From assembly GCA_009746045.1 (NCBI GenBank), contig RPFO01000041.1, forward strand, positions 6,261,323 through 6,325,322: a DNA stretch of 64,000 bases, read 5' to 3'. The notes below the pieces were generated by a model. That model did no database searches. It was not told the origin of the DNA and worked only from the letters and a program-made list of their open reading frames with translations. Origin of the DNA: Mesostigma viride. Lineage: Eukaryota; Streptophyta; Mesostigmatophyceae; Mesostigmatales; Mesostigmataceae. This document shows, piece by piece, positions 5,564-57,962 of this stretch (within the stretch, counting starts at the first letter, position 1; the number at the start of each line of letters is the position of its first letter). Position numbers and translations under genes: made by a program.

Positions 5564-5839
5564 AGTTGTACTGTGTAGTTCTACTCAGTACCATAAATCC
5601 TAGTGTGGACGCCGCGCCGTCAGCATCTTTGCTGCGCCGGAATCTTGTAAACGGCATCTAGCGTCGCGCCGAGGAATCTCGGACTATGTTAAGCAAGTCC
5701 AATGCGCGGTGATAAGTTAATGAGAAATAAATGCAACGTGACGGCGGACGAGGTAGCCGCCTGCGTGTTTCTCTGCGTAGCACCAAAGCACTTGCCTCTC
5801 GACGAAGAGCGTTGGTATCCAAAACACATTATTGCAACT
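5564..5839 (+). repeat. Cop1 5' LTR
   Basis: 276 bp, AGTTGTACTG...TTGCAACT. It is followed by TGTACTCAAG, which has no obvious match to a tRNA 3' CCA end, unlike the TGGTATCG sites next to the GagE and GagT LTRs. It differs from the 3' LTR at about 1% of positions. Confidence 0.9.
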
Positions 5840-5866
5840 TGTACTCAAGAAAGAACATTTTCAAAA

Positions 5867-7093
5867 ATGTTCCGGACGGGCCTGACAATGCCGTCGTCCA
5901 AAATCAAACACAAAATCAAGCTGCCGAATCTCGGAGCCCTGGGCTCGAAGGGCGTGGGCACACTCCGCAAGCCCACCGCGAGCGAGATTCAGAGGAATCT
6001 GAACGAAGAATTTGCCAAGCAGGATAGCCCCGCAGTGGTGGACACTGCGGCGGAGGAAACTGCACCTGCAGCTGCCCGTGCAGCGGAGCTGCCAAGTGGA
6101 TCACAGGCGGCTGGGCTGCGCACTGCAAGCCTAGACCGTGCTGCCCGCATCCTCTGGATGAAGGAGCAAAAGGTGATCGAGGAGCGAATTCCTGCGCCGA
6201 TTCCAGCGGCTCCTGAGCCATCAGAGAAGGTGAAAGAACAGTTTATTTTGAACCTGCGCAAGTGGCACAGTGATGTCCAAGACATGGTAGCCAAGCCTAT
6301 CGAATTGCTGAGGCGCAATCGGCTGGCCACCGAGGGTTACAAGGTCGTATCCGACCTGATCGAGATAGCCTACAAGGAGGACCGGAGCTGGGAAGAATTC
6401 ATGGCTAGCCTTGAGAAGAATCTCCTGAAGACGGGGCTAATGCGCCTCGTCGCAGATGCAGTGAGTATTCTAAAGTTTGATCTGAATCGGAAGGTAGACA
6501 TCAGCCAGGCAACGCTCGACTACGAGCAGAAACTGGCGTTGTCGTCCTGCTCGCCAGGTGACGCCTTCTCGGTGGTAATGTTTCTGGCAAAGGGCATCAT
6601 GTCTGGTAGCCTGTCTGAGTCCGCCCTCCAGGGCATGTCGGGAACACTGACTGTCGACAAGCTAGCAAATAGGGCAGAGGCTTTCCAGATTATTCGCAAT
6701 TCTGTTGCTGTGCCGGCTGCCGCCAAGGCATTGGTGGCAGCGGGCATTTCTGACCCTCTTTCCTCTGCTGCAGCGCCCATTGCAAGAATTCATGGTGCAG
6801 GTGAAGAGAAGTGTGGCCGATGCCAGGGCACCGGGCATGTGTGGTCGGATTGCCCAGCCAACACGAAGGCTGGTCCGAATGTGCGGCTGTGTGGCGCCTG
6901 CCACCAGCCAGGGCACTTCGCCAAGGACTGCAAGCACACACGCGGTCCGCAGGGCAAGAAGCGCCCGCCCAAGCCGGCTGGCAACATGCGGCCCAAGAAG
7001 GCCAAGTGGAACAAATGGCAGAGGCAGGGGAACACCCAGGCCACACCTGCTAACACTCATGTGCCTGTCCCTGCTCCCTCTGCAGCAAACTAG
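5867..7093 (+). CDS. gag: Cop1 Gag with two zinc knuckles
   Basis: The first ATG after the LTR (5867) opens 408 codons. This is the capsid/nucleocapsid precursor that packages element RNA in virus-like particles. The N-terminal 130 residues are Ala/Pro-rich. A helical capsid-like region follows (about 130-310, including the WHSDVQDMV segment). Then come two CX2CX4HX4C knuckles, CGRCQGTGHVWSDC and CGACHQPGHFAKDC, and a basic tail. The frame also reads open upstream into the LTR, but that part is LTR sequence, so 5867 is preferred. The stop at 7091-7093 lies inside the pol frame, which is open from 7054. The overlap is about 40 nt and pol is in the -1 frame relative to gag, so pol is probably made by -1 frameshifting. 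Confidence 0.85.
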   Translation: MFRTGLTMPSSKIKHKIKLPNLGALGSKGVGTLRKPTASEIQRNLNEEFAKQDSPAVVDTAAEETAPAAARAAELPSGSQAAGLRTASLDRAARILWMKEQKVIEERIPAPIPAAPEPSEKVKEQFILNLRKWHSDVQDMVAKPIELLRRNRLATEGYKVVSDLIEIAYKEDRSWEEFMASLEKNLLKTGLMRLVADAVSILKFDLNRKVDISQATLDYEQKLALSSCSPGDAFSVVMFLAKGIMSGSLSESALQGMSGTLTVDKLANRAEAFQIIRNSVAVPAAAKALVAAGISDPLSSAAAPIARIHGAGEEKCGRCQGTGHVWSDCPANTKAGPNVRLCGACHQPGHFAKDCKHTRGPQGKKRPPKPAGNMRPKKAKWNKWQRQGNTQATPANTHVPVPAPSAAN

Positions 7094-7116
7094 ATAGCCC
7101 ATGTTGGGACGATGAT

Positions 7117-10100
7117 GTGTTTACCACTAATCTAGCTGCATGTGATGAGCTGGGTAGTTGTGTAGACAACAATTCTGCTGCGTGCATTGCTGCTGTGTTG
7201 CGTAGCGGCTTGTGCACAGACATTGTTACGCCTGCGGCAACGCGGGACCATGAACCCCCACCGACCAGTAATGCTGGTACTATGCAAGCTGGACTCATGC
7301 ACGTCGACCGTGACGATGGGGGGTCACTGGCCACACCAGGTGAAGTCCTTTCCTTGACTGCTGTTGCTGCACGCTTGCATCATGTGTTAGGCCATGGGAC
7401 CCACGCTATCCGTTTTGCACGGGCACTGGCACCGGGGACTAAGTTGGCTAGCACGGTGCAGTCCATGTACAGTGGTTGTCACCAGTGTCAGTCCACTGCG
7501 CCTAAGCGTGCACGTAGGCATGTCAAACACCCACCCCTTGAGCGTGGTCACTTGGTGTGTGACATTTTGTTCCAGGACCAGGCTGTCTACTTGCTGGGAA
7601 TAGACAGATTTTCCCATTTTGTTTCAGTTGTCCCACTCAAGTCACAGCATGTTGGGGACCTCCTTGAGGGGATAGACCTGTTGGACTCCATGTTTAGCAT
7701 GGTTACAGGGATGCAGTTTGATCAGCAATTCAAGTGGGCTGCCAAGGAACCTGGATATGAGTTTGTGGGAACAGTGGGGCGTGAGGACCACGAGTCACAA
7801 GGGATAGCGGAGAGAGCGGTACAGGAGTTTAAGCTGCTTGCTACCCGACGTGGGGACCACATGCCACACAGTGAATTCTCTAGTCGGCTCTTGTGGGCAC
7901 TTGCCGTGTGTCGAAGTTTGAACAACCGTGTGCTGATGTCGACACAGGATGGGGTGTTGGTGACTGCCGAGGGTTTGCAGTTTGGCCAATATCACGATGT
8001 GGTGGTGGATGTGTACAAAGACCACCTAGCATCCCGTTTTCAGCGCCTTGTCCAGTTGGATAGGCGACGTGGGGCTTATGAGCCCAGTGTGGGGCATGAT
8101 GTTTGGCTGCACAAGGAAGGTGCCCTGGGTAAGCGTGGCAGGTGGCTTGGTCCAGCCAAGGTAATTTCTTGTGATGCTGCTATGCGTAAATGCGTGGTGG
8201 ACTATGAGGGCACTGAGGTCACTATGGCTTGGAATAGGGTGAAGCCCTACATGCGTGATGTGGAGGCTTGGTCTAGAGTGTTGGAGTTGTACTCCGACCC
8301 TAGCAGGCTCTCTAGCACTGTGACTCCTCCTTCCTCTTCGGCTCCTGTATGTGACAATGCAGGGGACAGTGGTACTAGCGCGCCTAGTGGGGAAGCTGAG
8401 TTGGAGTTGCAGAGTGGGGACTATGATGATGATGTTGCTGTGGTAGCACACCACTTACACACCCTAGGGGTAGAACAGGCAGAGAGCTTGCGCGACAGCT
8501 TGCCTAACCTCCCCCCTTCTGGCGTTGGTCGGGAGGATCCCTGCGTTGGTAGGGATAGTACTCAGGGCAGTTCCTGTCTTGAGCGCCCAAGCCGTAAGGG
8601 CTTTCTCACCCTTGCTGTAGAAAGGTTGATGCGTAAACCTCCTACAGACGCTTTGCAAAATCCCGTCAAGGCAGCGATGGTATCCGCATTTGGTACCCTG
8701 GGTGATCAGCATGGTATGAGGATGTTGGTAGATACGCAGGCGAGAACCTCCATTGTCTCATCCCTGCACTACAATCCTGTGAGACCCTCAGTGCACTGGG
8801 AGTGTGTGACTGATTTTGCTGGCTCAACGAAGTTCCCTGTCCTTGGTGTCATTGATGTCAATGTGATGGGGGTGCTAGTTGAGTTTTGCGTGGTGGAAGG
8901 GTATAGTGGTCCACCAATCCTTGGTCAGAACTTCCTTGTACGGGAGGATGTCTGGGTCAACTCCACCTGCTTGCGGCGGGAGGGGCATGCTGATCTGCCT
9001 CTTGAGGACTATGCTGTCATGTCTGACTGCCAACTTGTTGCTGTCATAGGCAACATTCGGCACGTGAACTATGCCCGTGAGAGTGATGTGCCGTTGGTAA
9101 CTCAGTTGTTGCTTCCTAAACGTCCTAGCTTGGCTAGTCTCGGCATTGGACGTCATGATGTTGCTACCCAAAGCCCTATCTCTTACCATGATGCTGACGT
9201 GGAGTGTCAAACGGAGGAGGGGCTAGATGGGTGGACTAAGGCCATTATTGCGTCAGGTGAAAGGTGGCTTGCATACCGTGCTGTTGAACCGGTTGATGAA
9301 GTGCCCAGTGGTGCTCGCCTTTTGCGCCACAAGTGGACTTTGGAGCGTAAGTTGGTGCCTGACACAACAACTAGGGTGCCTTTTGTTCGCCCGGTGGTCC
9401 TAGAATTTTCAGGTACTAGTGATCTTCCGGACAATGCCATCTCAGCACCTGGGTTGATCAAGGATAATTGGCGCATGGTCCTGTCCTTCTACCTAGGCCA
9501 GCTCAACAAGGGACTTCCGTATGAGTCAGCCCTCATGGATTTCAGCAAAGCTTTTTTGAATGGTGATCCCAAGCTCGCTGAGAATGTGTGGGCTGGCACG
9601 ACCCGCTTGTATGTGCGCTGTCCTCCCTTGTGGCAGCCTATCATGGGCAAGAAGTTTCTCCGTCTCTTGAAGGGTGTTGACGGTACTGTGACAGGTCCTC
9701 GGATTTGGCGCCTTTGCCTCGAGCGTCTTTTGCTTGATGTGATGCACATGTACTATCATGACCTGGACCCCTCTCTGTTTGTTGGCTCATGGGAGGGGCA
9801 GCCAGTTTTTGTGTTCATTCATGTCGATGATGTGGACTGCATGGGCCCCACACCGTGGCTAGACTGGTTTTGTGCCACTGTTGCTCAGCACTTCCCGGTC
9901 GGCAAGGTCATTCGCCGCGTCTTGGACAAGTATGTCAAGTTCTGTGGCGTCGACACTATGCTCACCAAGGATGCCTCTGGCAGATATGTGATGAAGCTGC
10001 GTGCAGCGGGGGACTATGTTCAGGAGCTCATCACTCAGCTTTCATCCCTTACTAGTCAGTATATTCAGCCTGCTGAGTGTGGTTCTCTGCGGGGTAAGCT

Positions 10101-10755
10101 GAACTGGCTGGTCTCTACCGTCTCCCCTGACTTGGCGGTGCTTGCTCGGTTGCCAGATGACTTGATGTGCTCTCTTTCCCGCAATGTCATGTGTAAGTAC
10201 ATTTCTGCCTCCCCTGGGTTGGTCTTACATGGGGTGGACTATGAGCGGCCTATTCACTTGTCCGCGTATTGTGATAGCAGTTTGGATAGTGCTAATATCT
10301 CTAAGCTCCGTGGGCGCTGTGCCGCTGTGGTGCTTTTGAGTAATTCTGCCACTGTCCATGTCCCTGAATCTTCCCCTTCACCCTTTGCGTGGTTTTCTCG
10401 CTTACATCGGCGGGTGTATGTGGGTAGTGACACTGCAGAGGCTCGTGCCTTCTGCGAGACTGCTGAGGAGTTGATGTATTTCCGTGCGGTTCTTCGGTGG
10501 TGTTTGAAGTTTTGCCGTGTCATTCCACAGGTTGATACCACCATCTTCACGGATTCGCAGTCGCTGATTGACTTTTTGGCTGATCCTTATGCGCGCACGC
10601 GCAAGCTCGACTTCCTTCGTGCCAAAGAATATAGTGACGCTGTTTCGCTGTACCATGTTCGCGACAATGATAACATTTCAGATGCTTTGACCAAGCTGTA
10701 TGCCAAGGCTAGGCCTCAGTATGACAAGCTTCGTCTAGTTCAGGCGACACTTTAA
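7117..10755 (+). CDS. pol: Cop1 Pol: integrase, retropepsin-like, RT and RNase H in that order
   Basis: This 1212-codon polyprotein (frame open from 7054) makes the DNA copy and inserts it. Residues 87-128 carry an HHCC zinc module (RLHHVLGH ... CHQC). The integrase core acids are D149 (LVCDI), D202 (QFDQQF) and E232 (GIAER). The D-to-E gap is about 29 residues. An SH3-like C-terminal part follows (GKRGRWLGPAKV). A retropepsin-like domain comes next: D539 in VDTQARTSIV and ILGQNFL at 601-607. RT motif A is MDFSKAFLNGD (D808). Motif C is FIHVDDV (H902, D904, D905). RNase H acids include D1053, the EAR near 1108, D1146 and D1189. Known Ty1/copia order is protease before integrase; here it is reversed. 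Motif C has His where Tyr or Phe is usual. No frame breaks are seen. Confidence 0.9.
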   Translation: MFTTNLAACDELGSCVDNNSAACIAAVLRSGLCTDIVTPAATRDHEPPPTSNAGTMQAGLMHVDRDDGGSLATPGEVLSLTAVAARLHHVLGHGTHAIRFARALAPGTKLASTVQSMYSGCHQCQSTAPKRARRHVKHPPLERGHLVCDILFQDQAVYLLGIDRFSHFVSVVPLKSQHVGDLLEGIDLLDSMFSMVTGMQFDQQFKWAAKEPGYEFVGTVGREDHESQGIAERAVQEFKLLATRRGDHMPHSEFSSRLLWALAVCRSLNNRVLMSTQDGVLVTAEGLQFGQYHDVVVDVYKDHLASRFQRLVQLDRRRGAYEPSVGHDVWLHKEGALGKRGRWLGPAKVISCDAAMRKCVVDYEGTEVTMAWNRVKPYMRDVEAWSRVLELYSDPSRLSSTVTPPSSSAPVCDNAGDSGTSAPSGEAELELQSGDYDDDVAVVAHHLHTLGVEQAESLRDSLPNLPPSGVGREDPCVGRDSTQGSSCLERPSRKGFLTLAVERLMRKPPTDALQNPVKAAMVSAFGTLGDQHGMRMLVDTQARTSIVSSLHYNPVRPSVHWECVTDFAGSTKFPVLGVIDVNVMGVLVEFCVVEGYSGPPILGQNFLVREDVWVNSTCLRREGHADLPLEDYAVMSDCQLVAVIGNIRHVNYARESDVPLVTQLLLPKRPSLASLGIGRHDVATQSPISYHDADVECQTEEGLDGWTKAIIASGERWLAYRAVEPVDEVPSGARLLRHKWTLERKLVPDTTTRVPFVRPVVLEFSGTSDLPDNAISAPGLIKDNWRMVLSFYLGQLNKGLPYESALMDFSKAFLNGDPKLAENVWAGTTRLYVRCPPLWQPIMGKKFLRLLKGVDGTVTGPRIWRLCLERLLLDVMHMYYHDLDPSLFVGSWEGQPVFVFIHVDDVDCMGPTPWLDWFCATVAQHFPVGKVIRRVLDKYVKFCGVDTMLTKDASGRYVMKLRAAGDYVQELITQLSSLTSQYIQPAECGSLRGKLNWLVSTVSPDLAVLARLPDDLMCSLSRNVMCKYISASPGLVLHGVDYERPIHLSAYCDSSLDSANISKLRGRCAAVVLLSNSATVHVPESSPSPFAWFSRLHRRVYVGSDTAEARAFCETAEELMYFRAVLRWCLKFCRVIPQVDTTIFTDSQSLIDFLADPYARTRKLDFLRAKEYSDAVSLYHVRDNDNISDALTKLYAKARPQYDKLRLVQATL

Positions 10756-11172: not shown

Positions 11173-11448
11173 AGTTGTACTGTGTAGTTCTACTCAGTAC
11201 CATAAATCCTAGTGTGGACGCCGCGCCGTCAGCATCTTTGCTGCGCCGGAATCTTGTAAACGGCATCTAGCGTCGCGCCGAGGAATCTCGGACTATGTTA
11301 AGCAAGTCCAATGCACGATGATAAGTTAATGAGAAATAAATGCAACGTGACGGCGGACGAGGTAGCCGCCTGCGTGTTTCTCTGCGTAGCACCAAAGCAC
11401 TTGCCTCTCGACGAGGAGCGTTGGTATCCAAAACACATTATTGCAACT
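11173..11448 (+). repeat. Cop1 3' LTR
   Basis: 276 bp, same termini as the 5' copy, followed by the GATAA duplication. The 417 bp between the pol stop and this LTR (10756-11172) hold no gene. They end in the polypurine tract adjoining AGTT. Confidence 0.9.
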
Positions 11449-11453
11449 GATAA

Positions 11454-14205: not shown

Positions 14206-14252
14206 AGTTAGCATTTTGGGCAACCAATATGCTAAGTGGATGCAGTTTGGAA

Positions 14253-21294: not shown

Positions 21295-22056
21295 GTGCTG
21301 GATGTACATAAGGACGGGGGTGTGCCCCTTGTGCAGCACCAAGGGTGTAAAGATGTTGTTCTTCCACTGGATTGCAATAACAATGCTGCAGCTGAATTCC
21401 CTATGCCTCATGCAGGTGGTGGGTCTCCAGCAGGTGCTGGCCTGGAGGGCCAAGGGACCTTGCTGGAAGGGCCTGGAGCGGTCCAGGGTGCAGGGCCTGA
21501 CTTGGGGCGTCAGGACGGCCTGCAGGGAAGCCCTGGAACCTCAGGAGTGGATCATGTGTCCCCACACACGGTTCAGACGTCTCGCCAGGTCAGTACTGAA
21601 AGAGTGCTGAGCTATGCTGAGGCTGGCCATAGATTGCATCATATGTTTGGGCATTCTGGGCAGGCAGCAATGTTTGCTTGGAAGCTAGGTAGGGAGCCTT
21701 TGTGGGAAGCTTGCCAGGCTGCTGCTGAGAACTGTGGTTGCCAGGAGAATGCTGTTCACCCACCTCAGTCCCATGCTAGGGAACCTGCTAGGGAACGTGG
21801 ACACATCCAGATGGATATCCAGCATATAAGGGGCTTGTATATATTGGTTGGGGTGGACAGGTTCAGCAGATACAGGCTGATAGACGTTCTGCCTGGTATG
21901 CAGGAGCACCACTTGTTGTTGGGTATGAAGGCCCTGATCCCAGGCTTTGGGGTGTGCAAGAGTGTGCAGGCAGACTTGCAGTTTGACTGTTTGCTCAAGC
22001 ATCAGGACCAGCTGCCTTGTAGGCTGGTAGTAGTCCCCAGCAGGGAGAGTCATGGG
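21295..22056 (+). pseudogene. pol: Cop2 integrase, N-terminal part, cut by Pal-B2
   Basis: After a Gly-rich linker an HHCC module appears (HRLHHMFGH ... CGCQ). The catalytic core follows: first Asp in IQMDIQHIRG, second in QADLQFD. The frame reaches RESHG where Pal-B2 is inserted after the ATGGG duplication (22052-22056). Integrase joins element DNA to the host. Its place directly after gag and before the retropepsin-like domain is the same as in Cop1. The shift between gag and this frame parallels Cop1's gag/pol arrangement. Confidence 0.75.
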
Positions 22057-22540: not shown

Positions 22541-24430
22541 GTGCTGAGGCCTCAGGTGGGGCTGAAGGTCAGGATGTGGAAGGAACCATCTATTCCAGGC
22601 AAGCGGGGGAAGTGGCAGGATGGGGTTGTCACTCGTGTGGAAGAAGCTAACAGATCTTGCCTGGTGGCTTTGGAAAAGGATCCAAGGCACGTGTACAGGT
22701 TGTCCTGGGCTCATGTCAAGGAAAGAAGGCCACATGCAATCTGGCCTGCAGACGGGCCAGGCCCTCCCAGCTGGGTTGAGGAGCCAGGCCAGAGCCAGGC
22801 AGCAGCAGCTAACAATCCTCTGGTGGTGGATGATGGTCTGTCCCTGCTGGAAGATGACGAGCAGGAGGAGGCTGCTGAAGCAACTGTCACAAGGCCAGAG
22901 GGGACGGGGCAGCCACCTAAGGCCCGGGGGCCTCTCATGGCGGACGTCATCCGAGCACTCATGCGCAGCAAACATGATCCCAAGGTATCCAAGCTCACGG
23001 GGTGGGGGTCGTGCTGGGCAGCTACAATGGAGGTAGATACCAACTCACAGGTGTCTGTCATCAGGGAAGAGGATGCTGTAGGCTTACAGATGTCCCATCC
23101 CAGTTGCCTTGCTGTGTCTGATTTCTCAGGAAAGGTGTCCATGAAGATCCTTGGGGAAGTGAGTGTGCCTATCTTAGGGGTGCCCACCACGTTCTGTGTG
23201 GTAGAGGGCTATCAGGGGCCTGCCATTCTGGGTCAGAACTTCTTGTGCATGCCAGGGGTTACTTTGACCTCTGATGAGTTGGCACTAGAAGGCAGGGGCA
23301 GCCTCCCCCTTGAAAGATATCACTATTCCCAGGGTCTTGCAGTGGCGGTGAAGGCTGTTAGGAGTCAGCCAGCTGAGGGTCCTCAAGGTCAGGAGCCCAT
23401 AGCTGAGGACCTGTTGATAATCCCAACCACCTTTGATCCACGGCAGTTAGGGGTAAACAGGTACCAGATAGCTGCTCACAGTCCTATTCCCTGGCGCCAG
23501 CTAGTCGAGATGATGCAAAGCCCCAAGATGGCTAAGGCATGGACTCTTGGCTTTGTTGCTTCTGGGCATGAGTGGATAGTTTCCAACTGTGCAGAACCTG
23601 TGGATGAGCTGCCAGAAGTTCACCAGCTGCTCAGATTGATGTTTGTCCTCAAGCTCAAGGAGGTAGATGGTGTCCAGGTGCCACATGTCAGACCAGTTGT
23701 AACCGAGTATCATGGCACTGGCCAGTTGTTAGATGAGGAGCTCTATACTCCAGGGATGCTGCATGACACGTGGAGGATTCTGCTGTGTATATTTCTGTCT
23801 TTTCTGGTTAAGGGTGTGCCCTATAGCTCTGTGCTGATTGATTTCAAGAGGGCTTTTCTCAAGGGTGACCAAGATCAGGCTAGGCAGACTTGGAGAGATA
23901 TCCCTCCTTTCTTTGTGACTGTACCTGCTGTATGGAGAGCAGAGATAAAGGCCAGGTACCTGAGAATTCTGAAAGGGTTGGAAGGTCTCAGGTCCAGTCC
24001 CATTATCTGGAGAAAGAGCCTAGAGAAATTCTTGAAGAATACTTGTGGGTTTTCTGTGTCTCCAGTGGATCCCTGTTTGTTCCAAGGGTCCCACAATGGC
24101 CTTCCTGTCTTTGCCTCACTGCATGGTGATGACCTGCATCTCATAGGTCCACCAGACTGGGTTGAGGCTGTCTTGGCTAAGATCCAGAAGCGGTTTGAGC
24201 TGGGTAAGATACAGCACATGGTGGAGAATGAGCCTATGGTCTTCTGTGGCATGCAGGCTACGTTGTTCCAAGCCAAGGGCTCGTGGTTCATCAGGATGGA
24301 GGGTGGTAAGGACTACCCACAGCAGATTGTAGATGCATTGCAGGAGCCCATCACGCAGGCTAGGTGTGCTACCATCAGGGGCATGCTGGCATGGCTTGCA
24401 AGTATATGTGCCCCTGACTTGCTGGTTTGA
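22541..24430 (+). pseudogene. pol: Cop2 Pol: integrase tail, retropepsin-like and RT
   Basis: This 629-codon frame begins with the SH3-like integrase end. An acidic linker follows. The retropepsin-like domain has VDTNSQVSVI (about residues 167-176) and ILGQNFL (about 230). RT has the fingers/palm segment EPVDELPEVHQLLRLMFVLK, motif A LIDFKRAFLKGD and motif C SLHGDDLHLIG. It stops at APDLLV, just before RNase H; a frame break near 24430 separates the two. As in Cop1 and CopB the protease-like domain sits between integrase and RT, and the Gly of the DTG/DSG signature is Asn. Motif C has His before the x-DD. Confidence 0.8.
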
Positions 24431-24518
24431 GTCGACTTACTGATTCCCAGCTGGTTGAGGTGGGTGCTGAGAGTGTGGTGCAGGCTGTCATGATGTCTCC
24501 CCCTCTATACTGGGTCCT

Positions 24519-25028
24519 GTGGATTTGTACAAGCCCCTTGACATGGTTCTCTATGTGGACAGTTCTATGGATAATAGGAAGGTCACAGAGGTCAGGGGCA
24601 GGGCAGCAGCATTAGTTACCCTGGAGCAAGATCACACCTCACTTGTTACCTGGTACAGTCGGTTGCAGAACAGGGTTACACCCAGCAGTGATATTGCTGA
24701 GTGCAGGGCAATCTGTGAAGGGCTGCATACTGCTCTTTACTTGAGGGAGCTCTTCTACCAGCTATGTCAAGTGGCTTCCTGTAGGTTGCAGCTGCACACA
24801 CTGGTGAGGACTGATAGCATGGGCATGGTGCAATTTGTGCACAGGCAGCTGGCCAGGAGCAGGGACCTTGACTACTTGTTGCTCAAGGAGATGTCCTACC
24901 TAGCTCACATTGAACATGTGCCTGGTGTGGACAACCCTGCAGATGCCCTCACCAAGCTGGAGGAGAAGGCGGAGAGGCAGTACCCCCTGCTCCGTGGGCT
25001 CATGGACCCCTTACACGGGCGGCCATAG
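24519..25028 (+). pseudogene. pol: Cop2 RNase H
   Basis: The frame starts MDLYKPLDMVLYVDSSMDNR, giving the first Asp. It holds the EAR-like AECRAICEG, the third acid in VRTDSMGMVQF, and the final VDNPADALTKL. RNase H removes the RNA strand during copying. It is one frame off from the preceding RT part. CopB's RNase H (41319-41944) is a close relative, sharing LVTWYSRL-type and DNPADALTKL segments. Confidence 0.75.
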
Positions 25029-26032: not shown

Positions 26033-26676
26033 AGTTAGCATTTTGGGCAACCAATATGCTAAGTGGATGCAGTTTGGAAAGACCTTTCCAACGCCGTGCT
26101 GACCGCCTGAAACAGACAAGGGACGAGAAAGATATCAAGTCCCGAAGTCCCAGCCATCCGTGGCCGACTAGGGTGCAGTCCTCTGGTATAGTGGACAGGA
26201 CACGTGGCAGGCCGTGCCTGCACAGGCTTAGCCTATCTATCACGTGACTGTGGTCCACGTAGGCCAGAGGAGCAGTAGCCTGTGACTGGTGGAATACTGG
26301 GGCTGGCACAGGGCTGCAAGGATACTAGACCTTGCAGGCTTGTGACAGGTCCTGTACTTCCTAGGTTGCAGAGTCTAGGCAAATCCAGTACGTCCTGGCT
26401 CTGCACTGATGCCAGTGGACGTTGTGGATTTGCTTGCACGCCTGCACGTGCCTCGTCATGCCGATGGGAACGAGGAACAACGCAAAGGATATAGCTTGGT
26501 CATGGGGGATGACCAGCTATCTCGGAAAGCACGAACCGAGGCTCCCACATTGGACGTGGAGACGCTCACCGTGGTTGTGGCCTGGTGAACAGATTTAAGG
26601 TTGCTGCCTTGCAACATTGGCTAAGCCGTGCTGTGAAAGACCAAGAGCTCACACACGTTGGGAGCTCTTTCTAACT
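26033..26676 (+). repeat. Cop2 3' LTR
   Basis: 644 bp, AGTTAGCATT...TTTCTAACT, followed by the ATATA duplication. It provides the uninterrupted sequence (TTTGGAAAGACC, about 26073-26084) that defines the IR-1 insertion point in the 5' LTR. Confidence 0.9.
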
Positions 26677-26681
26677 ATATA

Positions 26682-27343
26682 TATTGTATTAATGATTAAA
26701 TTGCGTAGTGACCAAAGACATGGCCAACAAGGCCTTCCCAACAAGGGAATCGGCCCAACAAGGGTGACGACTCCGACCAACAAGGTCTTTCCAACAAGGA
26801 ATTCCCAACAAGGGTGTGAGTTGGACCAACAAGGTGACTTTCATTATAAAATAGATTACGTTTTTATATCTTGTGTCGACCAAGGCATTGATGCTGAAAA
26901 GATGCCGATAAGATGAACTAGATGCCGATAAGGTGTCTCGAATGTTCTGGAGCATCATCGAGAAGATAAGGTTCAGGAATATTCGATAAAGGTGCCGACA
27001 CCCTTATGAGTGACTACTTGTAGGAGCTGTACTGTCGTTCGGCACACATTTTATATGATAACTGTCGACTAAACAAATTCGTCACAAATTCTACATAGCA
27101 TCGTCAAAACATTGCAAATATTTAGAAACAATTCCGGTGAAGAGTTAGCTGATCTAATTGCAAAGGGTAACACTCGGTTCCCTGGCTACCAACGATCAGG
27201 TTCTTGACCAAAAGTACGTCAAATGTCATCCTAATTGCTAAAGTGACAAATAAATGCCACCCGCTACCGACGGATGAAAAAGTATTGTAGTCCAGAAGTA
27301 AAAAAGTTGTCACACGTGGCAAACAGTGCCAGATTTTCTGACA
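26682..27343 (-). repeat. GagE right LTR, second part
   Basis: It continues the LTR after Cop2 and ends TTTCTGACA before CACGT. It contains the intact version of the Cop1 target (GATAAGGTTC, near 26966). It differs from the left LTR at roughly one or two percent of sites. Confidence 0.8.
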
Positions 27344-30211: not shown

Positions 30212-30640
30212 AGTTGTGCTCCCGAGTGGCATCTATCCGCTGGCCGGTAGTCGCCGGCCTGGGCGCCTAGTCAGGTGGGCATCAAAGATTGGTGTCTAGA
30301 TGCTAGTCGGTGCCTAAGCAAGGTACGGAAGCCAGTGCGCGCCGGGACGGTCAGAGAACCGTCGCCCTCGGTAGCACAGATCCGCTGAGTGCCGGTAGTC
30401 TCGGGTTAGAGGCTCGAGCATGCACTATCGGGTAGCCTACCGGTAGTCTCGGGTTAGAGGCTCGAGCATGCCTTATCGGTTAGCGCCGCGCCGCTGAGCT
30501 CCTTGCGGCCTCGCCAGCTGCAAGGGTTCAATAGCAATCAGTGGCGGCTGCGGGCTCAGCCTCCCACAATCGGTTCCCCAAACAACAAAAATCCCGTCTC
30601 CATCGCCGGCGTGCTAGCCAGCGGTGAAGGGCATTCAACT
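30212..30640 (+). repeat. Cop3 5' LTR
   Basis: 429 bp, AGTTGTGC...TTCAACT. It contains a duplicated block, GGTAGTCTCGGGTTAGAGGC, at about 30391 and 30440. The next bases TGTATTCACAAC resemble Cop1's TGTACTCAAG and not a CCA-type primer site. Confidence 0.9.
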
Positions 30641-30686
30641 TGTATTCACAACAGTCAACATTACCGTTGACCATTTTTCTGGGCTC

Positions 30687-31892
30687 ATGGCGCGTGGCGC
30701 GGAGCGAACGCCAGCTGCAACCCAGGACCAGGGAACGCAAGCATCAACTCCGGCGGATGGGAGTGGCGCAGCCACCGTGGCGACTGAGCCAGCTGGTGGC
30801 TCGGTCAGCACAGCTCCGGGGCAGCAGTCAGCACCAACTGCCCGGAAAGTTTTCAAGAAAGAAGAGCTGCCAAGTAAGCTGCCAGAAATTCTGACGCCGT
30901 CCGCCGTGGAGGAGTTTATTAACAGCCTGGGCGAGCTCCGGCAGGACTACAACGAACTGTCCGACGCAGTTTTCCTCACCAAGCTGCGCCGGTCAGAGGT
31001 ATGCAACGAGGCTACGGGTAATGCGGACGTGCGAGGGGTCATTATCAACGCCAGCAAAGAGGCGTGGACCTGGCCTGACACAGTGAAGGCCCTGCAAGAG
31101 GTGCTCGACACCTCAAGCTTTCCTGACGAGGAAAAGGAGGGGCAGGCGCTGGTGCGCAACCTGTCGCTTGACCCGAATTACCTCAGCTCGGACATGGCCA
31201 GATTCGCGGCCCAGGTCCGGAGCAAGGGTGTCTTGAAGCACATGAGTAGCGAATATTTACTCAGCGCAGTTCTGGATGCGCTGGGGCTGACGCCAGAGAG
31301 CCGTGCCAATGTCAAGGCCGGTCTCGGCATGAAAATTGCGCTAGCTTCTTCCGTGGTAGTGGGCACCCCGGACGACCAGAAACGGTTCAACGCAGCCATG
31401 GCGCACCTCCGAGAGATGTTCAAGGACCGGGGCGGCCCCAGGCGTAACAACAAGCTGCCGACAGTTGCTCAGGTAAACCCTGTTCCTGCCTCGACCCCGC
31501 CAGCAGCTTCTCTGTCGGACTTGACCACTCTTGTTACCCAGCTGTCCACGACGGTGGCCGACAACGTGGTGCGAATGTTGGGTGGCAAACGCCGAGCTCG
31601 CGGTGGTCGGCACAACCAGAACGCGTCCAGCAAACGCGGGCCGGGAGGCGGTCAGGGCAAGCAGCCTCGACAGGAGGGCGGCGCTGGCAGGCAGCAGCAG
31701 CAGCAGGGTGGCGTCCCCAAGGAGAAGGTCGTCTGCGAGCGGTGCACCGGCGTGGGGCACACCGAGGCCAACTGCACGCTGCGGCTGGACCTCGGCAAGG
31801 CGACTCGAGTGTGCCGGCGCTGCTGGGCGGTTCGGCTTCCTGGACACGACCCCAACACATGCCGCGCCCCACGGCCAGCCATGCCCAAGTGA
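30687..31892 (+). CDS. gag: Cop3 Gag with zinc knuckle
   Basis: The first ATG downstream of the LTR in this frame (30687, MARGAERTPAATQDQ) gives 401 residues. An Ala/Gly/Pro leader precedes a helical core (about 60-250; LPEILTPSAVEEFINSLGEL and later SEYLLSAVLDALGLTPESR). A basic Gly/Gln-rich linker leads to CERCTGVGHTEANC, a CX2CX4HX4C knuckle. A second Cys/His cluster follows (CRRCWAVRLPGHDPNTC), with a longer C-to-H gap. The two-cluster layout matches Cop1 Gag. The frame is intact although the element lacks most of pol, consistent with cis packaging by its own Gag. Confidence 0.8.
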   Translation: MARGAERTPAATQDQGTQASTPADGSGAATVATEPAGGSVSTAPGQQSAPTARKVFKKEELPSKLPEILTPSAVEEFINSLGELRQDYNELSDAVFLTKLRRSEVCNEATGNADVRGVIINASKEAWTWPDTVKALQEVLDTSSFPDEEKEGQALVRNLSLDPNYLSSDMARFAAQVRSKGVLKHMSSEYLLSAVLDALGLTPESRANVKAGLGMKIALASSVVVGTPDDQKRFNAAMAHLREMFKDRGGPRRNNKLPTVAQVNPVPASTPPAASLSDLTTLVTQLSTTVADNVVRMLGGKRRARGGRHNQNASSKRGPGGGQGKQPRQEGGAGRQQQQQGGVPKEKVVCERCTGVGHTEANCTLRLDLGKATRVCRRCWAVRLPGHDPNTCRAPRPAMPK

Positions 31893-31905
31893 CGTCATAG
31901 AGGTG

Positions 31906-32631
31906 ATGTGTGTCGCGGAATACGCCGACAAGCTCGCGCAATCGCTGCCTGAGCGGCTGGATGCGTCCGCGGGACCGCACTTGCGCGGCCAGCTGGGGTG
32001 GCTCGCGGGCACGGTGCGACCCGACCTGTCCATCTACGCGCGTGCGCCCGACGCCGTGCTTGCGGGCATGGGAGCGCAGCATCTTCGGACGCAAGTCTTG
32101 GCGTCACCGGGCCTGCGCGTGTGGGGGGTTGATATCACCCGCCCGGTGGCAATGACCATTTACTCTGACGCGAACCTGGAGTCGCGTACCATCACGCAGC
32201 TGCGCGCGCGGGAGGCGGCCATCTTTTTTCTTGATAGCCCCACTGGGCAGCCCACTATTGTCGACTGGTATAGCCGCATCCATCAGCGGGTAGTGGTAGA
32301 CAGCAATCGCGCGGAGTGTCGCGCGTTCATTTCCGCTGTCGACCATGCGTGTTATGTGCAGCATCTTTTGCAATGGATTGCGGATAAGGCCCGCGTGGCG
32401 CTGTCGCTCCGCATGCGGCTGTGCACAGATAGCAAGTCAATAATCGAGTTTCTGAATAACCCGCTCGCCTCCACCACCAAACTAGATTACCTTGTGTTGG
32501 CCGAGTCCGCCACGGTGTTGGATGAGCGGCGGTGGATCCCTGAGAGCGAGAATATTGCCGATGCCTTGACCAAGCCCGCGATGCTGTCGGGGCCTCAGTA
32601 CAAGCTGCTGCGGCAGCTCATGATGACATGA
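31906..32631 (+). CDS. pol: Cop3 Pol remnant: RT end plus RNase H
   Basis: From the ATG at 31906 (MCVAEYADKLAQSL) the frame carries the RT connection region (HLRGQLGWLAGTVRPDLSIY). RNase H follows with IYSDANLESR, AECRAFISAV, LCTDSKSIIEF and ENIADALTKP, the four acidic positions expected. The frame is also open upstream inside gag, but that is out of register with pol homology. The RT catalytic motifs are absent, so it cannot copy RNA. RNase H looks intact. The gag stop (31892) and this start are 13 nt apart, marking the internal deletion. Confidence 0.75.
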   Translation: MCVAEYADKLAQSLPERLDASAGPHLRGQLGWLAGTVRPDLSIYARAPDAVLAGMGAQHLRTQVLASPGLRVWGVDITRPVAMTIYSDANLESRTITQLRAREAAIFFLDSPTGQPTIVDWYSRIHQRVVVDSNRAECRAFISAVDHACYVQHLLQWIADKARVALSLRMRLCTDSKSIIEFLNNPLASTTKLDYLVLAESATVLDERRWIPESENIADALTKPAMLSGPQYKLLRQLMMT

Positions 32632-32968
32632 GTTTTTTTTACCGTGTGACCTGTCGTCTTTTTGCATGGGAATGGGCGCTTCTTTCATCTGTGAATACAT
32701 TTCCCTAGACCTGACAGGCGGCCAGTGTGCCTAATAATGATGCATGTGGTGCAGTTGCACCCAAGTAGAAAAGGAGGCCGGGAGCAAAGCCCGGGTGTTT
32801 TTGGCGTGCTCAGATCCCAGCGTAGGGCACCCTCCTTGGGGTCTAGGATTTGGGGACGGCGAGTGTGCCGTTACGTGTTTCTCTACTTGAACGTACGTAG
32901 GGTCAGTGCTACCCTATTGCCCCACGCTTTAAATAATTTATGATAATTATTTAAAAAGAAAGTATGGG

Positions 32969-33397
32969 AGTTGTGCTCCCGAGTGGCATCTATCCGCTGG
33001 CCGGTAGTCGCCGGCCTGGGCGCCTAGTCAGGTGGGCATCAAAGATTGGTGTCTAGATGCTAGTCGGTGCCTAAGCAAGGTACGGAAGCCAGTGCGCGCC
33101 GGGACGGTCAGAGAACCGTCGCCCTCGGTAGCACAGATCCGCTGAGTGCCGGTAGTCTCGGGTTAGAGGCTCGAGCATGCACTATCGGGTAGCCTACCGG
33201 TAGTCTCGGGTTAGAGGCTCGAGCATGCCTTATCGGTTAGCGCCGCGCCGCTGAGCTCCTTGCGGCCTGGCCAGCTGCAAGGGTTCAATAGCAATCAGTG
33301 GCGGCTGCGGGCTCAGCCTCCCACAATCGGTTCCCCAAACAACAAAAATCCCGTCTCCATCGCCGGCGTGCTAGCCAGCGGTGAAGGGCATTCAACT
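32969..33397 (+). repeat. Cop3 3' LTR
   Basis: 429 bp, essentially identical to the 5' copy, followed by the CGCGT duplication. The 337 bp between the RNase H stop and this LTR hold no gene. Confidence 0.9.
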
Positions 33398-39611: not shown

Positions 39612-39767
39612 ATGGAAAATCCCGTTGACATCGCGCAAAAACAGGCCAAGAGAAAGCGGCAAGTGGCGGAATCGGCCCGCCGGTGGAGGTTGAAAAAGAG
39701 GGGGAAGAAGAGGGGGACGACTCAATGCATACGTAGTCAGGCGATGGAGGGAGTTGTGAGAGAGTGA
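39612..39767 (+). other. Short basic ORF interrupted by CopB LTR
   Basis: An ATG in a perfect Kozak-type context (gccaccATGG) opens 51 codons rich in Lys and Arg (QKQAKRKRQV, then RRWRLKKRGKKRG). The last few codons lie in the putative CopB LTR that starts at 39752. If the start is real, the frame was cut by that insertion and its remainder is beyond the window. No family is recognised. Confidence 0.25.
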
Positions 39768-40368
39768 ATGCCCTGAATTCCGCCATGGTTCTTGCAGGAA
39801 TGTTGCCTTTATTAAGAATAAGGAACACAGACGTAAGTCACGTCACTTCCAAGACTGCACGCAGCACAGACGACAGGGTCGCAGTGCCAAGAGAGCGTGC
39901 ACGCAAGAACTAGCGTCCCGGTGCGACCAAGTCACACATATAGGTTGCTAGGGACGCGTCCAAGTATTCAGCTGTACTGTCACAGCTGAACTGTCAATCA
40001 ATTGATTACACAGACTCTGGCACGCCTTTGGCGCGCAGATCTATCAATTGTCCATACGGCTAGTCCTGTGGACCTATCCGTACACTACTCAGCATCAATT
40101 GTCTCATAGGTCCTGGCGCGCTACAGCGCGCCTACCTATCAATTGACCATCAAGTCCTGTACAAGTCCTGTCAACGTCCTGCGGACTATCAAAGTGACAC
40201 TTGTACATCCTGTGTCCGTACGCGCCCACAGTGGCGCGCCGGGCACTGTCGGCACAGCCTAGGAAACGTCATAACTTTTACGTTCCTTAACCAAATGAGG
40301 CGTTCAAGGTGCCGTTGGAAAGAGCGTAACAATCTCTATCCATCTAACGTAAATCCTTTACGTTAACT
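39752..40368 (-). repeat. Putative CopB 3' LTR
   Basis: Read on the minus strand it starts AGTTAACGTAAAGG right after the purine tract AAAGAAAAGAAGGGATTGG, which closely matches the Cop2 tract before its LTR. It ends CTCTCACAACT. The second LTR lies outside the window, so the inner end is well supported and the outer end is inferred from the AACT terminus. It contains four ATCAATTG motifs (about 39998, 40042, 40084, 40135). Confidence 0.55.
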
Positions 40369-41318
40369 CCAATCCCTTCTTTTCTTTAGGGATCACATCC
40401 CCTGCCAGGGACCCTTGAAGTAGCTTGAAATGTCCTTCACTCCAGCTTGAAGCTTGAACAGATGTCTTTAATGGCCATTGCCATTCCCCCAGCCTTTTCT
40501 TTTAAGGAACTGGAAAAGAAACAGATCTGCCACAGGGAAAACCATTCCATGAGAAATGGATAAAAACCTATGGAAGTGGCATTATAGAGTACCACCAGAT
40601 ATTAGGAACACACAAAATTAAATACATACAGGTTAATTCTATGAGGTCTTCTCCAGGAATTAATCCCATCACCTCGGTAGAGCCTCCAGTACCATGACCT
40701 TCTGGCGGTGAGTTACATTAATCCCAGATACTAATCCCATAAAACCCAGTACATATTCAATATAAGTACAATAAATCCATGACAATTAAAATACCACTTG
40801 ACAAAGTAAGGCGTATTACAATAGTTTGCCTGTCATTCTCTCAACAGGGGTCTATTGGCGCCCGTCTTACGGCGCCCGTCTACTTGCCAGATGGTAAACT
40901 GCCACAGCAAACAAATGACAAAATGAAACACATAGGCAACAATTAAATCCTGCCCTGGGGAACTAGGGAAGTCTGAACAGGCAAACTCCTGAACAGGCCA
41001 GCTTGTAGAAACATAATACCAGGGAATCGAACCCCGCCCTATAAACCCCAGAATAAAGGTTCCCAGACCATTGTGAGAGGTATGTACAAATATACATTTC
41101 TTTTAAAATAGTATACATGGTCTGTAATGGACCTGTCAACCTTGTGTAGTCAACAGCACGAACCCCAGCCAAAACCTGGCTGTATCCTGATTAAAATCAG
41201 AGTGAGTGTACCATGGTCCATGAGCCTTAGTACAGACTAAAATACAGGTATTATGCCAGTCACAATGCTGACACTACCACACAACCTGCTCTCCAATGCC
41301 CTATAACCAGGCACCAGC
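40369..41318 (-). other. CopB 3' untranslated region
   Basis: No gene. It shares structure with 25029-26032 of Cop2: a GGCGCC hairpin pair (about 40857-40884) and a tRNA-type B box, GGTTCGATTCC on the coding strand (41023-41033). It ends with the polypurine tract adjoining the LTR. Confidence 0.55.
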
Positions 41319-41944
41319 TTAGACAGCTTGCTGAGATGGGTCCATCAAAGACTGAAGAACCTTGTATTGCACTGCTGCCTTCTGCACTAGCTTGGTCAAA
41401 GCATCAGCAGGATTGTCAACCCCAGGGATATGCTCAATATTGGCCAAGGAGGACAATTCCTTAAGAAGGAGATAATCCAAGTCCCTACTTCTGGCCATCT
41501 GCCTGTGCACAAACTGCACCATCCCCATGGAGTCAGTTTTTAGAAGAGTGGTAACCTGAAGTGGCCAAGGAGTGTTAGAAGTCATCTGATGAAGCAACTC
41601 CTTCAGATAAAGGCTTGTGTGAATGCCTTCACAAATAGCCCTGCATTCTGCCACATCACTGCTGACAGCCACCCGTTTGTGCAGGCGACTAAACCAGCTC
41701 ACCAAACTCCCCAGGCCCTCCTGTCTGAGCACAAAGAGCCCTGCAGCCCTGCCCCTGACCTTGGAGACCTGCCTGCTGTCCATTGAGCTATCCACATACA
41801 GCTCCATGCAAATGGGTTGTGATAAATCCACTGCAGACAACAGAATGCCAGATGAAGCCTTGACCTGATCAGCCACCTTGGCAGACCCTAGCTCCACCAG
41901 CATGTCATCAGGCAACCTGGCTATGACCATAAGGTCTGGCCTGG
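41319..41944 (-). CDS. pol: CopB RNase H, C-terminal part of split pol
   Basis: The frame continues from 50627 after removing GagT. It reads RPDLMVIARLPDDMLVELGS (RT end), then ELYVDSSMDSRQ, AECRAICEGIHTSLYL, LKTDSMGMVQF and VDNPADALTKL, giving the four acidic RNase H positions. It removes RNA from the DNA-RNA hybrid. The break is marked by the duplicated AAATG (41945-41949, 50622-50626). Apart from the insertion the frame is intact, so CopB pol was probably functional before GagT arrived. Closest relative in the window is Cop2 RNase H. Confidence 0.85.
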
Positions 41945-41949
41945 AAATG

Positions 41950-50626: not shown

Positions 50627-53481
50627 CCTGCCACCCAAGCAACCATGCCCCTCACCATGGGACACAGTGCCTGTGTGATGACTGGAGGAAGCTTGCTAAT
50701 GAGGGTCTCTTGATAATCATTGCCCCCCACCAGCAGCATACGCCACTCCCCCCCCTTCTTCACCAGTGTGGCCTCCATGCCTACAAACAGTAGAGGCTCA
50801 TTCTCCACCTGCCATTGCTCCCTACCCAGAGGAAACTTGGACTTAATGATGGAGATCAGCTCCTTAAGCCACGACGTGGGAGCTATCAGATGTAGGTCAT
50901 CCCCGTGCAGCGAAGCATACACTGGTAGGCCTTCCCATTGCCCCAGAAACAGACAGGGGTCTACAGGAGAGACCTTCAAGTTGCAATGCTCCTTCAGGAA
51001 ACGGTTGAGAGTCTCCCTCCAGATTATTGGACTTGACCTAAGGCCCTCCAGGCCCTTGAGGATTTTAAGGAACTCAGTGTGAATGTCCCTTTTCCATACA
51101 GCAGGCACCCTGACATAGAAAGGCGTCTTGCCCTCCCACTTTTCCTGTGCCACATCTGCATCCCCCTCCAGAAATGCCCTCTTGAAGTCTACCACCACTG
51201 AGCCATAGTCCAAGCCCTTGTTGAGAAGGCCTAGAAATACACACAGCAGCAGCCTCCAAGTGTCATGCAACATGCCAGGGGTATACAACTCCTCAGCAGT
51301 GCACCCACCAGTACCCTTGAACTCATTCAGCACTGGCCTGACATGTGGTACCTTGACCCCGTCCACCTCCTTCATCTTGATGACAAACTTGAGCTTGAGT
51401 AGACGTCGTGCAGGAGGCAGGTCATTGACAGGTTCCACGCATTTCTTGGAGATCCAGTCCTCCCCAGATTTAATCAGACCCAGTGTGACCTGGGGACACA
51501 TAATGGGAGAGGACATGAGCTTCACCAGGCCTTGGTAGTTGATAGGGCTGTGTCCAGCAAGTGAGTGAGGACCAATGCCCAAACTGCTTGGATGACTAGC
51601 AGCTGGCAAAATGAGGTCATCAACCAAGGGCTCCTGCCCCTGGCACACTTGCACACGCTTAACCGACCTGGTTACTGCACGTGATAGGTGAGTGGTCCTG
51701 AAATTAATCAGTGGGACCTGACCAGCCCCTTCCTTAGTCAGGAGAGAGGACGTGATCACTACCCCATCCTGGCATAGGAAATTCTGCCCCAGAAGAGCAG
51801 GTCCCTGATAGCCCTCCAAGACACAAAAAGCAGTGTCCTGTCCAAGGATAGGAATAGATACCTCACCCAGTACCTTCACGTGTACCCCGCCACTGAAGTC
51901 AGACACAAACTGATAGCTGGGCTCAGACATGCTGTACCCTGCTGCAGCTCTGGTCCCAATGATGGAAACCTGAGAATTAGTGTCTACCTCTAAGGCAGTG
52001 TCCAGCCCCAGATTGCCATGCCACCTGAGCTTGGCTACCTTGGGCTGCTTCTTGGCTCTTTGTAGAGCCCCAATCAATCCAGCCAAACTTGTCCCCCTGG
52101 GCTTGGTTAGTGCCTTGGGCTTGACAGTTGACTCCCCAGCTGTTGACCTTGCAGCCTGTTCAACAAGTACCTCTGCAACCTGGCCAGGGCTGACAGATTC
52201 CCCTGCAACAGATGTGGTCGTTGCATCAGTGATGTCACCTGGGACCTGAAAATCCTGCAGATCCTGTGAGCCTTGTGCCTGACTGCCCTCATTCATCAGG
52301 TTAGGCTTGACATATGACCAACTCAGCCGGTGTACATGCTTTGGTTCGTCCTCCATGCTGACCAAGCATGCGTGGCTAGCTTCATCAACCTGGGTAACCA
52401 CCCCAGGACTCCAGCTACCACGTTTGCCATAAAGGCTAGGTTCCTTCCAAGCTAGGACTTTCTGACCCACTTGTGGCTCCAGCATCTTCCAACCCCGGTC
52501 CTTCTCCCTCAGCTTGGCAAAGGTGACATGTGCAGCATGTTTCCAGCCCTCCAGCACATGTGGTGGGCACAGGCCATGATATAGACCCATTGGGCTGACA
52601 GCAACTCCATCATAGTAGAAGTTAACCCTGCTGTTCAGCTGCTGCTCCACGTTCCTCAGCCATGCACTCCTGACAAGTGCAGGTGCAGACAAGGGTACCC
52701 AGTCTTCAGAGATGATCAATTTCTTGACCTCCTGGATTGCCCTCTCGATAGCACCCTGCTGCCCATGAGCCTCCCTAGGTGTAACCAGCAACTCAGGAAG
52801 GGTGGGATCACCCTTGAGATGCTGAAACTGCATGTCCACCTGGATCCTTGTGGTAGGAAACTTGGCTCTTACATTCTGCAGGGCAGCCAGCAAGTACCTG
52901 TTCTTCATAGAAGGTAAATGCTCTAGCACCTTGTATTTTGTGTACCTGTCCACGCACACCAACAGTTGCATGCCCCTGATGTGTTGGATATCACACTGCA
53001 GATCACCAATGCTCTGAGGTAGAGCTTTGGCATGTGATTTCCTGGGCTTGTTGGAGGACAACTGGCACTTACACCGTGAGGCAGCTTGCTGGCACGCCTT
53101 GAGAAGGGGTGCCTTGCCCATACGGAAGGCAAAGTTGTTTGACAGAGAAGTGGCATGCCCAAACATGTTGTGGATTCGGGCACCCAACTCCTGGTACACA
53201 GAGGAAGCAGTCCCTGGCACAGTCAGGACTGTGCTGTCAGGTTGTCCAGCATCACCATGCTGACTTCCATCCTGTTCTGACTCAGAGCCTGAGTCACCCT
53301 GCTCATGCCCAACACCTGGACCGCCAGCAGGGACCACATGCATACCACCAGAGGCCTTCACACCCCTTTGTGGTTGTACATTGGTTTCTCTCAAAATGAG
53401 AGGTCCACCCTCGTGCCCAGCACGAGGATGCATGGGGTCAGACATTCTTACAGCTGCACCAGCTGTCAAGGACGTCTTCAT
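50627..53481 (-). CDS. pol: CopB Pol: integrase, retropepsin-like and RT
   Basis: The frame from 53481 (MKTSLTAGAAVRMSD) is intact for about 950 codons. It has an HHCC module (RIHNMFGH ... CKCQ) and the integrase core: D near residue 164 (LQCDIQHIRG), D in IQVDMQFQ and E in GAIERAIQEV, with 29 residues between the last two. An SH3-like tail follows (GKRGSWSPGVVTQV). The retropepsin-like domain has LEVDTNSQVSII and LLGQNFLCQ. RT has PVNDLPPARRLLKLKFVIK, motif A VVDFKRAFLEGD and motif C SLHGDDLHLIA (His about residue 859). It breaks at VAWVAGIL where GagT is inserted; RNase H continues at 41319-41944. Domain order and His in motif C match Cop1. Confidence 0.9.
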
Positions 53482-53622: not shown

Positions 53623-54113
53623 TCACTGCTCCTTGTTGTCTTCTTGCTGACTGCCCTTTGAAGGCTGGCCTGCCTGGGACTTGTTGTTGTTCTTGTTGTT
53701 GTTTTTGTTGTTATTCTTGTTGCTGCCCTGGCCTTGGGTCTTCTTGAAGCTGGGACACTCCTTCTTGATGTGCCCCCACCCCTTGCACAGGTAGCATTGT
53801 ATCTTTGACTTGCCCTGGCCACTGCCCCCGTTGTCAGACGCGTTGCCCTGCTTGGGCTGACCACCCACCCGCCTGAACACCGACTTGGAGTGTGACCTCC
53901 CGTCAGGGTCGAGTGAATGATTGGCCTTCCGCTTGTCATGGTTGCCCCTACGCCCTCCTTGGCTTCTGTCAGCCTCGGACGTCTTGGAGCCACCCTGGGT
54001 ACGCCCACCTGCCTGGGTAGCCTTCACTGCTGGCACTCCACCCTCAAACAGCTCCTCTGCCTCGAGTGCTTGTTTGATTATGACCTTGTAGGCCTTGAGG
54101 GTTGAGTGTGGGG
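53623..54113 (-). pseudogene. gag: CopB Gag C-terminal part
   Basis: After Pal-B the frame reads STLKAYKVIIKQALEAEELF, a basic Gly/Ser linker and the knuckle CYLCKGWGHIKKEC (CX2CX4HX4C). An Asn/Lys repeat tail follows (NKNNNKNNNK). It ends at 53623, 142 nt before the pol ATG and in a different frame. The N-terminal Gag is missing: Pal-B interrupts it at 54113/54736, and CopC lies 12 nt further on. In-frame extension to 54291 is Pal-B sequence and not Gag. Confidence 0.75.
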
Positions 54114-57957: not shown

Positions 57958-57962
57958 GTGAG

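Follow-up and report, generated by a model that had tools for sequence, protein, structure and literature searches.

A copia-related LTR retrotransposon lineage of Mesostigma viride with integrase ahead of a retropepsin-like domain

We analysed a stretch of 64,000 nucleotides (nt) of the Mesostigma viride genome (assembly GCA_009746045.1, contig RPFO01000041.1, positions 6,261,323 to 6,325,322, forward strand), here called the window, which holds four related long terminal repeat (LTR) retrotransposons: Cop1, CopB, Cop2 and CopD. Each shows, in this order, a zinc knuckle, an HHCC/DDE integrase (IN), a retropepsin-like domain (PR), a copia-type reverse transcriptase (RT) and a copia-type RNase H (RH). 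The Cop1 insertion is complete: it measures 5.9 kb, its two LTRs of 276 bp are 98.9% identical, and its IN–PR–RT–RH series lies in one uninterrupted pol frame (Table 1). A sequence-only reading of this DNA had proposed the arrangement, and its residue positions hold: with residue 1 at base 7117, the HH starts near residue 88, the catalytic aspartate is D539 and ILGQNFL occupies residues 601-607. It had extended the order to the other three elements, which tblastn with Cop1 bore out, the alignments being collinear across integrase, retropepsin-like domain and RT in CopB (50572-53292, minus strand), Cop2 (21604-24995) and CopD (61405-63964). Over the 66% that aligned, Cop1 is matched without a difference by a protein of the M. 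viride gene set (P0001, jgi/Mesvir1).

The order IN–PR–RT–RH, found in Cop1, CopB, CopD and two related proteins (P0002 and P0003), fits neither the PR–IN–RT–RH order of Ty1/copia elements nor the PR–RT–RH–IN order of Ty3/gypsy elements, as had been claimed. It is present in six divergent members, five of them in one frame and one, Cop2, broken. The order is specific to the lineage: three canonical copia elements from this genome (L039, L040 and L041; protease motifs DSAAS or DTGAT) read PR–IN–RT–RH. The contrast had originally been drawn with CopC, a neighbour in the window; its copia-type protease is there, but CopC is a fragment, and we therefore examined the usual protease place in the three canonical elements. 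No published precedent for IN–PR–RT–RH was found in a literature search of partial coverage, with most subscription journals outside it, and a term search of the main text of two Mesostigma genome papers returned no match for copia, gypsy or integrase.

Outside the window the genome has intact one-frame copies of CopB, Cop1, CopD and the P0002 family, which confirm that the order is no artefact of annotation. Copy numbers come from the 440-Mb assembly (2243 contigs), include the window copies and are all lower bounds, scoring being confined to the best candidates. CopB has at least 46 matches at 99-100%, 42 of them with a frame of 1208 amino acids (aa); Cop1 has at least 39, of which 23, including the window copy, reach the top score; CopD has at least 89, 12 with frames of 1380-1381 aa; and the P0002 family has at least 45, 10 of them full length without stops. 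In both CopD copies inspected (L057 and L058) a frame of this length places PR at residue 701; in L057 it extends from the zinc knuckle through RNase H. Among relatives outside the M. viride gene set, a metagenome protein from an ENA contig (P0003, 1214 aa) is 51% identical to CopB and carries the complete IN–PR–RT–RH series, and P0006 (source 'lgn') consists of RT and RH only. Two proteins of the dinoflagellate Prorocentrum lima (P0005 and P0008) are 84-86% identical to Cop2 (window 22490-24430), P0008 spanning the second half of PR into RT; these may reflect contamination or horizontal transfer. Two scans of viral contigs, one using CopB and one using alignment A3, gave no relatives.

The RT and RNase H are clearly of copia type by sequence comparison. 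In profile comparisons the RT of the lineage scored 98.1 (E 3.9e-14) against copia RT versus 16.6 against gypsy RT, and the RNase H scored 56.8 (E 4.6e-8) against copia versus 20.4 against gypsy. Divergence is nevertheless large: RVT_2, the only RT family matched, reached 15.5-28.2 bits, under its cut-off of 31.6, as opposed to 151-178 bits in the canonical copia controls. In an unrooted RT tree of 13 rows and three clusters, the six new RTs form one side of a branch with 99/99 support; because the tree has no outside references it gives no rooted placement and cannot tell which two clusters are sisters. The question behind the proposed phylogeny is answered in part: the profile comparisons give the copia type of RT and RNase H, and a rooted placement calls for outside references.

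The integrase is recognized by its invariant residues (H6, H11, C39, C42, D67, D120 and E150 in all four aligned rows) and by a profile of the four sequences (A6), which we compared with the PDB at E up to 10. All 31 matches carry the name of an integrase or a Pol polyprotein, of HIV-1 wherever a source is stated, although these 31 are close relatives and not independent matches; the best of them, 1k6y (E 0.013), covers the region between the CC of the zinc site and a point beyond the last acidic residue. The spacing between the second D and the E is 29 residues in Cop1, CopB and CopD, versus 35 in the copia control L039. Pfam rve matched weakly, in one of the four members (E 0.003). With the C-terminal part included, the profile scored 24.1 over 85 columns (E 0.017) against one gypsy integrase of the genome and 20.0 over 247 columns (E 0.072) against three copia integrases. 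A GPY/F module after the core was suggested by eye, with W.GP in three of five sequences, but the profile score of 12.8 against one gypsy sequence lies below the best of 300 shuffles (21.5).

Between integrase and RT, all four window elements carry the motif DT[QN][AS] ... [IL]LG[QE][NP]F. Across seven sequences the catalytic motif is always DT[Q/N][A/S] and never D[S/T]G, Asp and Thr are invariant, and the loop is ILG or LLG, not the A11-type ILS of copia proteases. A profile of six such domains (A5) was compared with the PDB at E up to 10, and nine of its ten matches were retropepsins. HIV-1 protease constructs gave the best (E 0.032), aligned across the LLG half; retroviral-like aspartic protease 1 (ASPRV1) aligned over profile columns 9-87 of 118 (E 0.058-0.060), its VDSGAQVSVV opposite VDTQAQVSII and in register at the DT and LLG motifs. 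With a smaller, four-sequence profile, two of four PDB matches were retropepsins. Within the genome we assembled ten PF13975 matches (L042-L051, several rows near-identical), of which L048, L049 and L050 have a gypsy RT downstream (L054-L056) and L042 is a lone 214-aa frame. Against these ILG/gypsy-type proteases the domain scored 24.0 over 88 columns (E 0.0017), a value reached by none of 500 column shuffles, versus 12.0 against copia proteases and 11.3-14.6 against four decoys from other domains. An unguided scan of whole pol in four sequences with the protease profile landed on CopB residues 542-628 of 1003 (score 25.6, next 13.5), where the copia protease profile also falls, weakly (15.9).

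The domain is also conserved at the codon level. When the P0002 family is compared with a subfamily 79% identical to it, the ratio of non-synonymous to synonymous substitution (dN/dS) is 0.081 for PR, 0.080 for RT and 0.091 for RH (dS 0.7-1.5); in the same pair it is 0.142 for IN (180 codons only), 0.309 for the linker and 0.072 for the stretch between PR and RT. The sequence-only reading would have fallen with a true protease between Gag and integrase. In the gag frames and pre-integrase stretches of Cop1, CopB and CopD, scanned as single sequences, protease profiles scored 5.8-15.7, roughly as the decoys did; three D[ST][GA] motifs lie in these parts (VVDTAAEE, VSDTASLP and QGDSGSES), never with a protease match.

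Several results pull the other way. The nine PDB retropepsins represent two protein families, not nine independent matches, and the HIV-1 stretches by themselves do not pass; with a single domain member neither of two PDB matches was a retropepsin, and whole Cop1 pol had no PDB match. The Pfam search proposed for the Pol proteins gave RVT_2, rve and PF13975, all under cut-off: PF13975, the sole match to the domain, hit three of six members (best E 0.042), and nine complete window proteins, scanned with E up to 1, gave no protease family. The best shuffle against gypsy-type proteases, 22.0, is close below the observed 24.0. The low PR dN/dS rests on one pair with dS 0.7-1.5, and between the P0002 family and Cop1 the ratio is 0.281 for PR, 0.107 for RT and 0.219 for RH, with dS saturated (2.6 for PR, 3.6 for RT, 1.8-3.6 overall and infinite for IN and linker). 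The integrase core scored 19.2 against the copia integrase of the genome, and 2 of 200 shuffles were higher. Lastly, the glycine of D[ST]G is replaced in all seven sequences, and in other retropepsins such a replacement is expected to harm activity. The claimed retropepsin identity is backed by profile matches that agree, each weak alone.

The LTRs of Cop1, CopB, CopD and CopF, a deletion derivative of the same lineage, end in AGTT...AACT, not TG...CA; those of Cop2, by eye, end in CTAACT, its 5′ LTR being truncated. Paired LTRs are flanked by 5-bp target-site duplications (TSDs) in Cop1, three CopB copies (L032, L033 and L034) and CopF (GATAA, CAAAC, GATTT, CATTT and CGCGT). The expected gag, IN, RT and RNase H are present, with gag recognised solely by its zinc knuckles and its place. 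CopB has gag and pol in one frame, separated by UGA CUG; the window copy agrees in this junction with genome copies L031, L032 and L034, which suggests that CopB Gag-Pol may be made by stop readthrough. Among the frames listed for L033 and L034, none above 250 aa stands in the CopB gag place. Cop1 and CopD would need a -1 shift from gag to pol, and no classical slippery heptamer was found in Cop1 or in the CopD window copy.

Taken together, these elements probably constitute an autonomous, recently active, divergent copia-related LTR lineage with the polyprotein Gag–IN–retropepsin-like PR–RT–RNase H, which we read as distinct and as having lost or replaced the upstream protease. The domain is likely to be proteolytically active, judging from its sequence, and the loss of the glycine is the main reason for doubt. 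Most likely the elements would follow the usual copy-and-paste cycle, in which the protease would act from its place between IN and RT: the domain would dimerise inside Gag-Pol particles and cut the polyprotein, freeing Gag, IN and (PR-)RT-RH. For a dimerising protease the place within Gag-Pol need not matter, and this one would work with the catalytic Asp-Thr and the ILG loop, carrying Asn or Gln where other retropepsins have Gly. A copia-type ancestor may have lost its upstream 'ILS' protease and acquired a retropepsin of ILG type between IN and RT; equally, IN may have moved upstream of a PR–RT–RH block.

A more far-reaching interpretation, which we put forward tentatively, is that this is a separate superfamily-level lineage in a streptophyte alga and at least one environmental genome, with IN–PR–RT–RH as a third fundamental order, its own AGTT...AACT ends and working proteases that have Asn or Gln in place of Gly. 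On that interpretation the ends would imply an integrase with altered end recognition, and the lineage would possibly be a new superfamily.

Among the alternatives, the strongest, though in our judgement unlikely, is a pseudo-protease: the domain would have a retropepsin fold and be retained to dimerise or to fold IN or RT, with Gag-Pol left uncut or cut by a host enzyme. The absence of the otherwise conserved glycine from DT[QN][AS] in all seven sequences would fit this, as would the stretch between PR and RT, whose constraint in one pair equals that of PR itself, a pattern conceivable for a structural partner of RT. Yet Asp and Thr are both invariant, and the upstream parts of Cop1, CopB and CopD offered no alternative protease. 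Moreover, the canonical copia proteases L039 and L040 have DSA instead of DSG, and the family of L040, the one member in which the protease was read, has a 1460-aa frame in 22 of the 150 RVT_2 matches listed, so that a departure at this glycine need not stop the spread of an element.

That the region is an unrelated β-rich linker with a chance DT motif, leaving the elements without a protease, is highly improbable: no single-sequence or Pfam match was significant, but the profile's PDB matches are retropepsins in nine cases of ten, with ASPRV1 in register at both DT and LLG and HIV-1 over the LLG half, no shuffle scored as high, and the domain is under constraint. That the order is an artefact of assembly, frameshifting or annotation, or comes from a single recombinant, can be set aside in spite of the broken window copies of Cop2, CopB and CopD, given dozens of intact copies across four families, an independent protein from a metagenome that shows the order in full and a P. 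lima protein reaching from mid-PR into RT.

The copies other than Cop1 in the window are damaged (Table 1). A palindromic insert at 22057-22262 breaks the Cop2 integrase, and further copies of it lie at the broken 5′ end of CopB; perfect palindromes with 103-105-nt arms were observed at 22057-22262 and 54114-54735. The CopB 3′ part is separated from the rest by a nested 8.7-kb insertion (41950-50621). This insertion contains direct repeats (42603-42803 and 50419-50621, 98.5% identical) and, from its very edge, a second pair (41948-42608 and 44425-45085, 100% identical); long G+C-rich frames with a YLDD-like motif at 46975-50120 are perhaps a non-LTR reverse transcriptase. The CopD copy is frameshifted and runs off the window end. 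CopF holds a gag frame and then, in another frame, the end of RT plus RNase H, and was perhaps mobilised by a full element. Elsewhere, the window has a tandem array of 50-nt units (34882-35831, 14 overlapping register copies) and a nested complex of direct and inverted repeats, mostly 97-100% identical (14250-18031); scanning the window for tRNA genes gave none.

Table 1. Features of the retrotransposon lineage and of the CopC control in the window
Element	Feature	Position	Strand	Evidence or remark
Cop1	Left TSD copy, GATAA	5559..5563		right copy 11449-11453
Cop1	5′ LTR, 276 bp, AGTTG...CAACT	5564..5839	+	98.9% to 3′ LTR; boundary from unoccupied paralogue
Cop1	gag frame (stop to stop), two zinc-knuckle stretches	5693..7093	+	zf-CCHC 20.0 bits, cut-off 20.8
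Cop1	pol frame, 1233 codons, uninterrupted, -1 relative to gag	7054..10755	+	
Cop1	Integrase: HHCC zinc site plus D, D, E	7363..7953	+	A6 profile
Cop1	Retropepsin-like domain; DTQA 8731-8742, ILGQNFL 8917-8937	8695..9003	+	
Cop1	RT, copia type, HVDD	9256..10038	+	RVT_2 E 0.0051, under cut-off; profile comparison
Cop1	RNase H, copia type	10108..10752	+	profile comparison
Cop1	3′ LTR	11173..11448	+	
Cop1	Insertion-site paralogue without Cop1 (empty site)	26662..27343	+	reveals 5-bp duplication GATAA
Cop2	Integrase, N-terminal part	21604..21984	+	rve E 0.0028, under cut-off; tblastn
Cop2	Retropepsin-like domain (DTNSQVS ... AILGQNFL)	23000..23308	+	
Cop2	RT and RNase H, frame broken between 24430 and 24507	23561..24995	+	
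CopF	Same-lineage deletion derivative, LTRs 99.8%, AGTTG...CAACT, TSD CGCGT	30212..33397	+	
CopB	3′ part: RNase H and 3′ LTR (39751-40368)	39751..41949	-	98% to corresponding part of genome copy L032
CopB	RT	50689..51471	-	RVT_2 E 1.8e-6, 28.2 bits, cut-off 31.6
CopB	Retropepsin-like domain (DTNSQVS ... LLGQNFL)	51712..52020	-	unguided protease profile match
CopB	Integrase	52603..53187	-	rve E 0.035; tblastn; profile comparison
CopB	UGA stop between gag and pol in one frame, next bases CUG	53623..53625	-	
CopC	Canonical copia-type protease (WVLDSAAS ... LLSV), control	56720..57964	-	
CopD	5′ LTR (AGTTAGTC...TTCTAACT)	57963..58435	+	
CopD	Integrase and C-terminal part, zinc knuckle before	61405..62349	+	tblastn; intact copy L057
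CopD	Retropepsin-like domain (DTQAQVS ... LLGEPFV)	62687..62995	+	
CopD	RT, off window end	63311..63964	+	RVT_2 E 1.5e-5, under cut-off

Domain order is a main key for sorting LTR retrotransposons, and the lineage described here suggests that protease and integrase modules can apparently shuffle around a copia RT with mobility kept. It offers natural retropepsin-like domains without the motif glycine and an integrase working on ends other than TG...CA, both directly testable. Such lineages can be missed: in one large plant survey, all elements of unexpected order were dropped, after further study, as likely mispredictions (PMC6317226).

With Ty1/copia elements (Pseudoviridae) the lineage shares the RT and RNase H type, an integrase before RT and the 5-bp TSD that is usual for copia; it differs in its LTR ends, AGTT...AACT, and in an ILG-type protease that follows the integrase. 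Copia proteases usually have ILS instead of ILG, as stated in PMC2642776, which also mentions Gmr1. With Ty3/gypsy elements (Metaviridae) and retroviruses it shares PR–RT–RH as one block and an ILG-type retropepsin, the new PR being nearer to the gypsy-type than to the copia proteases of the genome (24.0 versus 12.0); in contrast to theirs, its integrase stands at the front and not at the end, and its RT and RNase H are not of gypsy type. Gypsy elements of the Gmr1 type, with the order PR–IN–RT–RH, are a precedent for a moved integrase, but they keep the protease in front. Another recent proposal is the LTR superfamily Troyka, described in PMC12440569 as zinc finger–PR–RT–RH–IN with a 3-bp TSD and CG...CG ends; it likewise has odd LTR ends, and differs from the M. 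viride lineage in domain order, TSD length and end sequence.

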